From Bacillota bacterium (lineage in GTDB: Bacteria > Bacillota > Dehalobacteriia > UBA4068 > UBA4997), in NCBI GenBank assembly GCA_021769035.1, contig JAETTP010000009.1, positions 1-58,343 on the forward strand: a stretch of DNA of 58,343 nt. Direction: 5' to 3'. A program made the translations under genes and the position numbers. The notes under the pieces are model-generated. The model saw nothing but the letters and a program-made list of their open reading frames with translations. It was not told the origin of the DNA and searched no databases. Positions 37,569 to 41,359 of the stretch are shown here, piece by piece; the first letter of the stretch is position 1; each line of letters starts with the position of its first letter.

Positions 37569-37612
37569 ATCTACTATAAAAAAGGGGAAACGACAAATTG
37601 GGAGAGAATATT

Positions 37613-39433
37613 TTGGCTAACGTTTCGGTTCGGGAGTATCTGGAGCGGGAGATTTTGCTTTTTGACGGCGCAATGGGCACCTATTTAAGCCAGCTGAGCC
37701 GGGCCGGGCTGGATAAGTGCGAGCTGGCTAATTTGCAGCAGCCGCAGCAGGTTTTGCAGGTGCACCGGGCCTACTTGCAGGCCGGGGCCAAGGCTTTGAA
37801 AACCAACACGTTTGCCGCCAATCCGGCAATGCTGGACAACGACCAGGATTTGCTGCGCCAGGTTATCAGCGCGGGCTGGCAGCTGGCTAATCAGGCAGCG
37901 GCGGAGCGGCCGGCGGCGGAGCGGCCTTTCATCTTTGCGGACTTGGGGCCGTTTGCCGCCGCGGCCGAGGCTGGGCTGGGCCTGGACGTGCAGGCCGGCC
38001 TGCGGCCGGTGCTGGATATATTTTTGCAGCTGGGGGCGGAGAATTTCCTGTTTGAAACTTTCAGCGACGAGGCCGGTCTGCCGGAGCTGGCGGCCTACAT
38101 CAAGCGGCAATGCCCGCAGGCCTTTGTGGTGACTTCCTTTGCCGTGCAGCCAGACGGCTACACGCGCGCCGGCCGGGCCGGGGCGGAGCTTTTGCGGCTG
38201 GTCCAGGCCTGTCCGCAGATTGACGCGGCCGGCTTTAACTGCGTTTCTGGGCCGTATCATCTGGGTAAATATTTGCGGGAGCAGCAGCTTCAACCGGCGG
38301 ACGGCCAGCTGCTTTCCATAATGCCCAACGCCGGTTATCCCACCGTCATCAACAACCGAACCTTTTTTGGCAACAACCCGGAATATTATGCCGAGCAGCT
38401 GGGGCGCATTGCGGAAATGGGCGTTCGGCTGCTGGGCGGCTGCTGTGGCACTACGCCGGAGCATATTGCGGCGGTGGCGGAAAGGCTGCGTCTGTTTAAG
38501 CAGGCTAAGCCTGCCGGGGCTGGGGCTTTTCAGGCCGGGCCGGCAGAGCAGACGGCCGGCGAGCTGGCCGCCGCGCCCTTGCCCAATCGTTTCCGCAGCA
38601 AGGCGGAGGCCGGCCAAAAGCTGCTGGCGGTGGAGCTGGAGCCGCCGCAGGACGTCAACCTGCCGCAGTTTATGCAGAAAGCTAAAATTTTGCAGCAGGC
38701 CGGGGTGGATATTATCACCGTGCCGGATTGCCCGATTGGCCGGGCCCGAATGGACAGCAGCCTGCTGGCCTGCAAGCTGCACCGGGAGCTTGGCGTGGAC
38801 GCGCTGCCGCATATGACCTGCCGCGACCGCAACCTGAACGCCACCAAGGCTTTGCTGCTGGGCCTCAGCGTGGAGGGCGTGAACAATGTGCTGATTGTCA
38901 CCGGCGACCCAATCCCCACCGCCGAGCGGGACGAGATTAAAAGCGTGTTCAACTTCAATTCCCGTATGTTGGCTAAGTATATCAGCAATTTGAATGAAAC
39001 CACCCTGCAAACGCCCTTTTACATCTGCGGCGCGCTGAATGTGAACGCCCGTAATTTTGACGTGCAGCTGCGCCTGGCCGAGGAAAAGCTGCAAAACGGC
39101 GTGCAAATGCTGCTGACCCAGCCGGTGCTGAGTAAACAGGCCGCGCTGAACCTGCGGCGGGCGCATGGGCAGCTGGGCGCCAAAATTTTGGCCGGCATAA
39201 TGCCGCCGGTCAGCTATCGTAACGCTTGCTTTATGCACAATGAAATCAGCGGCATTACCTTAGATGAGGAGCTGATTGAAAGCTATCGGGACACCACGCC
39301 GGAGGAGGCCCGCGCCCTGGGCGTGCAGGTGGCCTGCCGGGTTATGCAAGGGGTGGCCGATTTTTGCGACGGCTATTATATGATACCGCCGTTTAATAAA
39401 GTTGATATTATCTGTGATATATTAAAGTCTTAG
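37613..39433 (+). CDS. Bifunctional homocysteine S-methyltransferase / methylenetetrahydrofolate reductase (YitJ-like)
   Basis: This protein of about 606 residues has an N-terminal homocysteine-binding barrel (LLFDGAMGTYLSQL; zinc cysteines in GFNCVSGPYH and GGCCGTTPEHI). From about residue 310 an MTHFR flavoprotein barrel follows (LLAVELEPPQDVN, ALPHMTCRDRN, GVNNVLIVTGDPIP). The fusion makes 5-methyl-THF from methylene-THF and may methylate homocysteine itself. TTG at 37613 is preferred, 6 bases after GGGAGAG; TTG 37598 is an alternative. It ends the operon that begins with the DUF1638 gene. Confidence 0.92.
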   Translation: MANVSVREYLEREILLFDGAMGTYLSQLSRAGLDKCELANLQQPQQVLQVHRAYLQAGAKALKTNTFAANPAMLDNDQDLLRQVISAGWQLANQAAAERPAAERPFIFADLGPFAAAAEAGLGLDVQAGLRPVLDIFLQLGAENFLFETFSDEAGLPELAAYIKRQCPQAFVVTSFAVQPDGYTRAGRAGAELLRLVQACPQIDAAGFNCVSGPYHLGKYLREQQLQPADGQLLSIMPNAGYPTVINNRTFFGNNPEYYAEQLGRIAEMGVRLLGGCCGTTPEHIAAVAERLRLFKQAKPAGAGAFQAGPAEQTAGELAAAPLPNRFRSKAEAGQKLLAVELEPPQDVNLPQFMQKAKILQQAGVDIITVPDCPIGRARMDSSLLACKLHRELGVDALPHMTCRDRNLNATKALLLGLSVEGVNNVLIVTGDPIPTAERDEIKSVFNFNSRMLAKYISNLNETTLQTPFYICGALNVNARNFDVQLRLAEEKLQNGVQMLLTQPVLSKQAALNLRRAHGQLGAKILAGIMPPVSYRNACFMHNEISGITLDEELIESYRDTTPEEARALGVQVACRVMQGVADFCDGYYMIPPFNKVDIICDILKS

Positions 39434-39553
39434 GAACGTCGCTAAACGCCCATCTTTGAACTCTTCGCTGCGCTCAAATCGTCAACGTACTTTTAGTACG
39501 CCTCCTCATTTCACTTGCGAAATCATTCAAATCTGAGCATTTATCAACATTCC
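39433..39553 (-). repeat. Long imperfect-palindrome element, possible structured RNA or MITE-like unit
   Basis: The 28-nt arms 39433-39460 and 39526-39553 are inverted copies. In minus-strand RNA 25 of 28 positions pair (20 Watson-Crick and 5 G-U); on the plus strand those five G-U pairs would be C-A mismatches. Inner hairpins CGTAC/GTACG and ATTTC/GAAAT are also present. It lies at the 3' end of the PBP transcript, between converging genes, and has no terminator-type U-tract. It fills most of the gene-free gap 39434-39568. Confidence 0.7.
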
Positions 39554-39568
39554 TGTTTTTTAATTAAA

Positions 39569-41299
39569 CTAAACGCGTCTTTGATTGGTAATATCCTCCA
39601 AAATGGCAATTTTTTCGGCAATCTCCCGGCAAACGCCACCCGCGTCGGAGCCGCCGCTTTGGCCATCAGCGATATAAACGGCGATTGCCCAACGCGGTTC
39701 GTCCGCCGGGAAAAAGCCGGCGAACCACACGCCAAAATTCTGGCTGGTGCCGGTTTTGCCGGCAATGCTGATTAAATCGCTGGCGGCCGGCTGGCCGGTG
39801 CCCTCCTGCACGGCCTGCACCAGCCAACGCTTCACTTGGCGGGCGCTTTCCGCCTGCACCACCTGCTGCGGCTGCGCGCTGGGGACTTCATAAAGCACGC
39901 GGCCTTTTTCGTCCAGCACGGCTTGCACCAGGCGCGGCGTGGGCAGTTGGCCGTCGTTAGCCACGGCGGACAGCAGCCGGGCCACCATCAGCGGTGTGGC
40001 TCGGATTCCCTTTTCGCCGATAGACAGATTGGCTACGTCGGCCGGCACCGCGGGGTTGAAGTTGAGCCTACTGGCGGAATCGCTCTGGCTGAGCTGAAAG
40101 CCGCGCAAAACCTGCTCGGCCATACCAAGGCGGTAGGCGTATTCGCCTATCAGCTCGCCGCCCAGGCTTTGGCCCAGCTGAATGAAATAGGGGTTGCAGG
40201 AATTGCCCAGGGCGCGGCCGATGTCCTCCTCGCCGTGGCCGTGGCTGTTCCAGCAGCCCACCTGGTGCCCGTTGGGCAGGGTTATGCTGCCGCTGCAATT
40301 AAACAGCTGGCCGGAGTTATCTATGCTGATATTGTGGTCCAGCGCGGCCAGACAGAGCACAATTTTAAACACCGAGGCCGGCGGATAGTAGGATAGGGCC
40401 TTGTTGACGTAAACGTCGCCCTCGGTGGCCGGCTGGCCAATATACTGGTTGTAGTTGGGGGCGCTTACCATTGCCAGAACGTCGCCATTTTGCACGTCCA
40501 GCAGCACGGCTGCGCCGTTTTTATCCTGCATAGCGGCTTCGGCAATGGCCTGATAGTTGTAATTGAGGGTCAGTTGCAGGTTAAGGGTCGGCTTGCCGCC
40601 GTCGGCGGCAATATAGCGCAGCCCCTCCGCGGTCGGCCGATTTTTTTCGTCCACCGTTACGGCGATATGGGCGCTGGACTGCCCGCGCAGCAAGGCGTCA
40701 TATTGTTTTTCCAGCCCACTTTTGCCGATATAGGCGGTGTCCTGGTTGCCCTGCCGGGTTAGCGTTTCCGCTTCGGTGGCGCTGCTGGCCCCAACATAGC
40801 CAATCAGGTGGGCGGCCAGGCCGTCTGTGCCGTAACGCGGGCGAATGGTGGTGGCGTATAGCCCGCTGATTTGGGCCAAAACCGGTTGCAAATCCTCCAA
40901 CTGACGCAGGCTTAAATTGCGGGCCAATATGAACGGCTGGCCGGCAGCCAGCTGTTGCTTGAGTTGGCCGGCGGCTGTGGCGGCGTTGGCTTGCAGCCGG
41001 CGGTTTTGCAGCAGGCTGTTTAAATAGGTGACCCAGTAGGCGTCGCTGTTTTCCGGCAACAGCCGGGGAAACACCAGCAGCACGCGTTCCGCCCGATTGG
41101 TGAAGCTTTGCCCGCTGCAATCTAAAATGTCACCGCGGGCGTATTCCCGCTCCTCCACGGCCAAAAGCCGCTGCCGCTGTACTTGGGCGGTGTAATCCGC
41201 CGCGTGGCTGTAATTGATTTGCAGCAGCCGGACGGCCAGCAGCGCAAAAAGCAGCAGCAGCAGCAGGGAAATATGGCGATGGCGGCGCAGAGAAAGCAA
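39569..41299 (-). CDS. Class B penicillin-binding protein (transpeptidase)
   Basis: This 576-residue protein has an N-terminal membrane anchor (ISLLLLLLFALLAVRLLQI), a PBP dimerisation domain (EYARGDILDCSGQSF, GLAAHLIGYVGA) and a transpeptidase domain with catalytic Ser in PPASVFK (about residue 309), SCN in LGNSCNPYF and KTG in IAGKTGTSQNFG. It cross-links peptidoglycan. No PASTA domain is present, so it differs from a typical SpoVD; its role in vegetative or spore wall synthesis is undecided. The TTG at 41299 is placed 6 bases after GAGGTG, and this site is inside a terminator-like hairpin. Confidence 0.88.
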   Translation of the reverse strand: MLSLRRHRHISLLLLLLFALLAVRLLQINYSHAADYTAQVQRQRLLAVEEREYARGDILDCSGQSFTNRAERVLLVFPRLLPENSDAYWVTYLNSLLQNRRLQANAATAAGQLKQQLAAGQPFILARNLSLRQLEDLQPVLAQISGLYATTIRPRYGTDGLAAHLIGYVGASSATEAETLTRQGNQDTAYIGKSGLEKQYDALLRGQSSAHIAVTVDEKNRPTAEGLRYIAADGGKPTLNLQLTLNYNYQAIAEAAMQDKNGAAVLLDVQNGDVLAMVSAPNYNQYIGQPATEGDVYVNKALSYYPPASVFKIVLCLAALDHNISIDNSGQLFNCSGSITLPNGHQVGCWNSHGHGEEDIGRALGNSCNPYFIQLGQSLGGELIGEYAYRLGMAEQVLRGFQLSQSDSASRLNFNPAVPADVANLSIGEKGIRATPLMVARLLSAVANDGQLPTPRLVQAVLDEKGRVLYEVPSAQPQQVVQAESARQVKRWLVQAVQEGTGQPAASDLISIAGKTGTSQNFGVWFAGFFPADEPRWAIAVYIADGQSGGSDAGGVCREIAEKIAILEDITNQRRV

Positions 41300-41359
41300 A
41301 AAAATCACCTCAAATATTTTTAGTGTGTGGACGCTGACAATATTTAAGGTGATTTTTTT
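41298..41359 (-). terminator. Terminator-like hairpin holding the PBP ribosome site
   Basis: Arms 41298-41318 and 41339-41359 pair over 20 of 21 positions with a 20-nt loop. On the minus strand it follows the Xaa-Pro peptidase stop by 4 bases and ends in seven T. The 3' arm contains GAGGTG, and the TTG start of the PBP gene overlaps the end of the T-tract. Confidence 0.78.

Follow-up and report, generated by a model that had tools for sequence, protein, structure and literature searches.

What is the 121-nt imperfect palindrome that lies between two convergent genes in the window (the whole stretch of DNA that was analysed, 58,343 nucleotides of contig JAETTP010000009.1 of a Bacillota bacterium), and which of its strands, as RNA or as DNA, does its symmetry serve? 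The first-pass annotation, made from the sequence alone, had noted arm differences compatible with G-U pairing on one strand only and had proposed selection on an RNA transcribed in the same direction as the neighboring PBP gene.

Structure of the Element and Its Flanking Genes

The element occupies positions 39433–39553 and is supported by folding, repeat searches and a match to the covariance model R2 described below. As annotated, it is an inverted element; it forms one continuous hairpin that is stable only as the GA-rich minus strand. Minus-strand RNA folds with a predicted energy of −53.8 kcal/mol (z −9.1; none of 200 shuffled sequences did as well), whereas plus-strand RNA reaches −21.5 kcal/mol (z −2.2), and with DNA parameters the values are −21.5 for the minus and −9.2 for the plus strand. 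The two further short hairpins that had been described inside the element are in fact the inner part of this single hairpin, which is interrupted by regular 2×2 internal loops. A conserved apical module, GAGGAGGCGTACT-AAA-AGTACGTTGACGA, located at positions 39479–39507 (minus strand) and recognized in the core scan and in alignments, forms an 8-pair stem closed by tandem G.A mismatches.

The arms of the foldable strand, defined by the fold and by the arm count, are 28 nt long; the 5′ arm (39526–39553, minus strand) carries a tandem GA at about 39532–39533, and the 3′ arm (39433–39460, minus strand) carries one at about 39453–39454. Counted position by position, the arms form 21 Watson–Crick pairs, four G-T pairs (positions 5, 8, 15 and 18), no A-C pair and three purine–purine oppositions (A.G at position 10 and tandem G.A/A.G at positions 21–22). 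The earlier count of seven or eight differences, five of them G-U compatible, is therefore correct for seven differences; four wobbles are found within the arms, and the fifth is at position 29, just beyond the 28-nt arm. All four wobbles in the arms suit the same strand, which taken by itself is a weak indication of strand bias; since four wobbles in one element say little, the strand signal rests on the family counts given below.

On the 3′ side of the foldable strand lies a plus-strand gene (37598–39433) whose 611-aa product contains homocysteine S-methyltransferase and MTHFR domains according to gene calls and domain search. Its own TAG stop codon (39431–39433, plus strand) adjoins the element, and the last base of the stop is the first base of the element. 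The convergent PBP gene (39569–41308, minus strand; 579 aa, PBP_dimer and Transpeptidase domains) was identified in the same way and has its stop codon 15 nt from the element. The gene touched by the element is thus the methyltransferase/MTHFR gene and not PBP. Elsewhere in the window, two adjacent tRNA genes are present on the minus strand (647–823).

The statement that there is no U-tract holds only when the minus strand is read; the plus strand has six consecutive T (39556–39561) starting 2 nt past the hairpin, and this run is no general feature of the family. That the element is not a standard terminator was borne out, since runs of at least four T were found beside the hairpin in 8 of 51 genus copies as compared to 5 of 51 farther downstream, and no terminator site was called at the element in the window. 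An intrinsic terminator was accordingly rejected as an explanation. A known RNA family was rejected as well, as Rfam searches at gathering or permissive thresholds retrieved nothing relevant.

A Family of Repeats in the Genus

In the genome that contains the window (G000), two further close relatives of the element were found, with 93% and 87% identity, making three in all, and genome G006 of the same genus contains three close copies of this subtype. These six sequences were used to build alignment A3 and covariance model R1. The R1 search retrieved matches in seven of nine genus genomes, in agreement with the proposal of a dispersed palindromic, MITE-like repeat. After removal of eight weaker opposite-strand duplicates, one 26-nt fragment and an unrelated hairpin (G002:C1:46696), 51 elements from seven genomes were examined.

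Most genus elements are strongly divergent in stem sequence and constant in plan, with short stems separated by 2×2 loops. Tandem G.A prevails in the loops, with 152 of the GA/GA type counted in 70 elements, and the usual cap is GGAGGCGTACT...AGTACG followed by YYGAC or a close variant. Tandem and truncated copies were observed clustered within a few hundred bases at four loci of G005 (L092, L094, L096 and L097), which suggests local duplication and decay. Two orthologous elements, L075 (G000:C3) and L086 (G006:C4), come after a gene whose Terminase_3 domains were seen in G000, and these two elements therefore probably lie in a prophage.

Spread beyond the Genus

An exact scan for the apical core in 84,980 species genomes retrieved 24 stretches. 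Their hosts belong to Oligoflexia, Omnitrophota, Polyangiaceae, Peptococcaceae, Nomurabacteria, Uhrbacteria, Auribacterota, Desulfobacterales, other deltaproteobacteria and Clostridia. Nearly all stretches lie in hairpins of about 120 nt (two from Auribacterota fold less cleanly), and the same strand folds better in all 24.

Alignment A5, from which model R2 was derived, combines 15 genus elements with five elements from other phyla. The window subtype is absent from the training set, and R2 nevertheless detects the element in the window with an E value of 4.3e-15. The 11 genomes behind the core-scan loci contain from 2 to 54 R2 matches each, and matches were present in 16 of 199 genomes of the phylum. 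In one single-contig genome of the Bacillota phylum (G146, locus L302), four R2 matches were seen on one contig. For the analysis of position, 74 elements in 60 stretches were chosen among the R2 matches listed in five of the 11 genomes; they remained from 77 rows after two opposite-strand duplicates and a second match in L267 were left out.

Two core patterns gave no matches in 2.9 million viral contigs, and spread by phages was rejected on this basis, yet L075 and L086 follow a terminase gene, as mentioned above. We found no literature description of ERIC-like elements in these phyla, in a search that covered subscription papers thinly, so that this absence is not proof.

Pairing Is Conserved on One Strand

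In A3, 96.7% of cells are paired and none of 500 shuffles reached the pairing or the covariation score; double changes occur at 8 of 40 pairs, a number reached by 9 of 500 shuffles. In A5, 90.8% of cells are paired and double changes occur at 21 of 32 pairs, with no shuffle out of 500 doing as well. Both structures were derived from the alignments on which they were scored, which favors pairing, and sliding of the partners served as a control, upon which pairing dropped to 29–46%. A strand-symmetric test, which starts from folds made of Watson–Crick pairs only, was carried out on ten orthologous or likely orthologous pairs of elements. It gave 581 unchanged pairs, 62 double changes, 36 G-T, 20 A-C, 50 other changes and 21 gaps; these counts include a badly aligned pair (G005:C8/G008:C28) that contributes 23 of the 50 other changes and 10 of the 20 A-C.

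Single wobbles within elements are distributed unequally, with 65 G-T versus 13 A-C in the 51 genus copies and 17 versus 1 in 19 copies from core-scan loci; binomial p values for these counts are merely indicative, since the copies are related. In model columns, the G-T to A-C ratio is 48:2 for A3 and 80:17 for A5. The fold is conserved more than the base sequence, and the constraint acts on one strand, as had been proposed. The annotation had named a single copy without conserved pairing as evidence against it; instead, seven of the nine genus genomes contain matches and the pairing covaries.

Elements Tend to Adjoin Stop Codons in a Fixed Orientation

Genes around the elements were called with a simple codon-usage caller and not taken from curated annotation. 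Of the genus copies, 49 have a gene beyond the 3′ end of the foldable strand, and in 44 of them this gene reads into the element. The stop codon is located −15 to +10 nt from that end in 31 of 47 genus copies, with 3.8 expected from random placement within the same gaps. When 11 named orthologous or tandem copies were removed, the number became 27 of 36, with 3.4 expected and a single case of the mirror arrangement. Elements were counted if a called gene lay on each side, no gene call spanned them and overlap with a gene did not exceed 60 nt, which was the case for 47 genus elements out of 51 and for 63 of the 74 from other phyla.

In the other phyla taken together, stop adjacency was found in 32 of 63 elements (2.9 expected; no mirror case). 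It is strong in Nomurabacteria G064 (22/25) and in Auribacterota G068 (5/9), is based on few copies in Omnitrophota G062 (2/8) and deltaproteobacterial G067 (2/5), and is not above chance in Desulfobacterales G070 (1/16). Several genes, cbiC for example, have their stop codon inside the element.

Since the 3′ side of the foldable strand adjoins the stop codon, the mRNA of the touched gene contains the strand that folds poorly, and its template is the foldable strand. The proposal of selection on an RNA read in the PBP direction did not hold for the family: in the 44 of 49 copies just mentioned, and in 22 of 25 in Nomurabacteria G064, the foldable strand runs antisense to the gene that the element touches, and it follows that no common sense transcript has that fold. 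Single-stranded DNA, or else an antisense RNA so far unseen, would agree better with this arrangement. Exceptions were seen within the window subtype, where the foldable strand of L003 and L013 is in sense with the flanking genes.

Gain and Loss at Orthologous Sites

The site between cbiC and cbiD is filled in G000 and G006 and empty in G001, G007, G005, G002 and G004. At the window site, both convergent genes are present and the element is absent in G001 and G007, and a 16-nt piece of one arm is left in G006; no adjacent pair of these two genes was found in the remaining genus genomes. At purC/purB, a full element follows the purC stop codon in G000, G007, G002 and G005, only the outer stem remains in G001, and the element is missing in G006 and G004. 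Target-site duplications, suggested earlier as a check, were looked for at aligned full and empty sites, and none was clear.

The four full purC/purB copies differ from one another by compensatory changes. Such changes in place are unexpected for a dead insertion and favor either local function, with pairing maintained after insertion, or conversion, with copies overwriting each other.

Possible Nature of the Element

We consider it rather probable that the elements are non-autonomous miniature mobile palindromes of the ERIC-like kind, whose DNA is recognized in folded, single-stranded form and which are targeted to gene 3′ ends. The GA-rich strand (minus in the window) folds into a long hairpin of short stems with tandem G.A between them and a GGAGGCGTACT/AGTACGYYGAC cap. 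Copies lie at gene 3′ ends, touching or supplying the stop codon, with the foldable strand serving as template (bottom strand) of the gene. Most likely, an enzyme encoded by the host or by a helper would recognize this strand in its folded, single-stranded DNA form and move the element, which would then stay as a tolerated 3′-UTR hairpin that may decay or be lost. Three observations favor folded single-stranded DNA: the foldable strand runs antisense to the gene it adjoins, DNA energies also show the bias, and copies are gained and lost. We infer that movement passes through single-stranded DNA, that it needs an enzyme and that the consequences for the host gene range from neutral to mildly regulatory; no transposase or recombinase linked to the elements was found.

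One could also imagine that the palindrome is a functional 3′-UTR element whose CT-strand hairpin, formed in the mRNA, ends or protects the transcript of the abutting gene, as proposed for ERIC and YPAL in Yersinia. Tight stop-codon adjacency and the compensatory changes at orthologous purC/purB copies agree with this, as does the influence of ERIC and YPAL on mRNA stability reported in a review (PMC2229807). However, in almost all complete copies the strand found in the mRNA folds less well and contains A.C and U.C mismatches, T-runs in the genus are little more frequent right after the hairpin than farther downstream (see above), and sister species do without the element at cbiC and purC, which makes a 3′-UTR function unlikely. 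Still less probable appears selection on a GA-strand RNA, be it the 3′ UTR of PBP or an antisense or small RNA. The z value of the minus-strand fold, the family-wide excess of G-U over A-C and a PBP gene located 15 nt upstream in that sense would be accounted for, but this RNA would be antisense to the 3′-side gene in 44 of the 49 genus copies that have such a gene. In addition, copy flanks compared by eye share no promoter-like sequence, no promoter-like site is present at 39300–39750, the strand asymmetry is the same with DNA parameters, and Rfam gives no match.

Movement of single-stranded DNA raises the question of known enzymes. Elements of the REP/REPIN type are moved by Y1 HUH transposases (RAYT/TnpA_REP) with the same logic of strand-specific hairpins, and Y1_Tnp genes are present in 8 of the 11 other-phylum genomes. 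They were not found in the draft assemblies of G000 and of eight of nine genus genomes, nor in those of G067, G068 and G070, which contain 46, 19 and 54 element matches, so that we regard a RAYT mover as very improbable. The REP/REPIN repeats of RAYT systems are also palindromic, recognized strand-specifically and found at gene 3′ ends; they differ in unit size (20–40 bp for REP) and in that several high-copy genomes studied here are without Y1_Tnp. The integron recombination site attC is similar in size, and it, too, lies directly after a stop codon, is used as the folded bottom strand and is conserved in structure over sequence. The attC R-box motif is RYYYAAC ... GTTRRRY; both R boxes were found in 1 of 125 elements, against a shuffle mean of 0.2, an integron integrase scored above the cut-off in 1 of 14 genomes, and the copies are dispersed at ordinary chromosomal genes. 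Sites used by an integron integrase are therefore the reading to which we give the least credence. With Y1_Tnp missing from key genomes, and R boxes and integrase nearly absent, both RAYT and integron integrase are largely excluded as the mover.

Relation to ERIC and YPAL

The closest known relatives in appearance are ERIC elements (also IRU or RU-1, 127 bp), which have a similar size, form one long imperfect hairpin and are multicopy and intergenic. ERIC copies were taken from one E. coli record and one Pantoea plasmid. Their apical stem is closed by tandem GA, as in the family described here, within a GC(T/G)TAC...GTA(A/C)GTGAC module. The sequences are otherwise largely unlike, and the hosts studied here are far outside enterobacteria. 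ERIC has fixed TA-ended termini with target duplication, whereas outer stems of the family vary between copies and share no TA ends, and no duplication was identified at its empty sites. The ERIC copies inspected in an E. coli record adjoin gene ends in both orientations, unlike the fixed one of the family.

Alignment A6 and model R3 were built from eight ERIC copies and used to search 55 stretches (402 kb). R3 gave 14 matches at E ≤ 1, the best at 1.8e-5, and all are full-length family elements, in register and on the same strand; the element in the window (in L071, which was searched) and other elements in those stretches were not matched. The reverse search of 15 ERIC-bearing sources with R2 gave one weak match (E 0.013). 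By this similarity between models, common ancestry of the family and ERIC is probable, the alternative being convergence on a shared recognition structure.

YPAL (RU-2, 168 bp) is likewise a multicopy hairpin and inserts just downstream of stop codons, a preference that the family shares; it is longer, has another host range and is likened here by its description. A 2007 review describes target duplications of 3–26 bp for YPAL, next to dyad symmetry, and effects of ERIC and YPAL, both multicopy hairpins, on mRNA stability, and states that there was as yet no experimental support for a transposase of either (PMC2229807).

It has long been asked by what means ERIC and YPAL repeats move and for what reason they accumulate at gene ends. 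The hairpin design and the strand bias recur in genomes of Peptococcaceae, candidate phyla and deltaproteobacteria, and the stop-codon rule recurs in most of those tested. The puzzle thereby becomes a comparative one: which enzyme the hosts share, whether it binds the GA-strand hairpin, and why stop codons are chosen. It is possible, if on the doubtful side, that all these elements belong to a bacteria-wide mobile class that acts only as a folded single strand, with a hairpin code of tandem G.A on the template strand that an enzyme would read and with fixed-orientation insertion at stop codons, of which ERIC would be the enterobacterial branch. The covariance models permit annotation of such elements, which would otherwise be mistaken for terminators or small RNAs. 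At two E. coli ERIC loci (L197 and L198), an additional insertion, at one and the same internal position, has displaced the 3′ part of the element.
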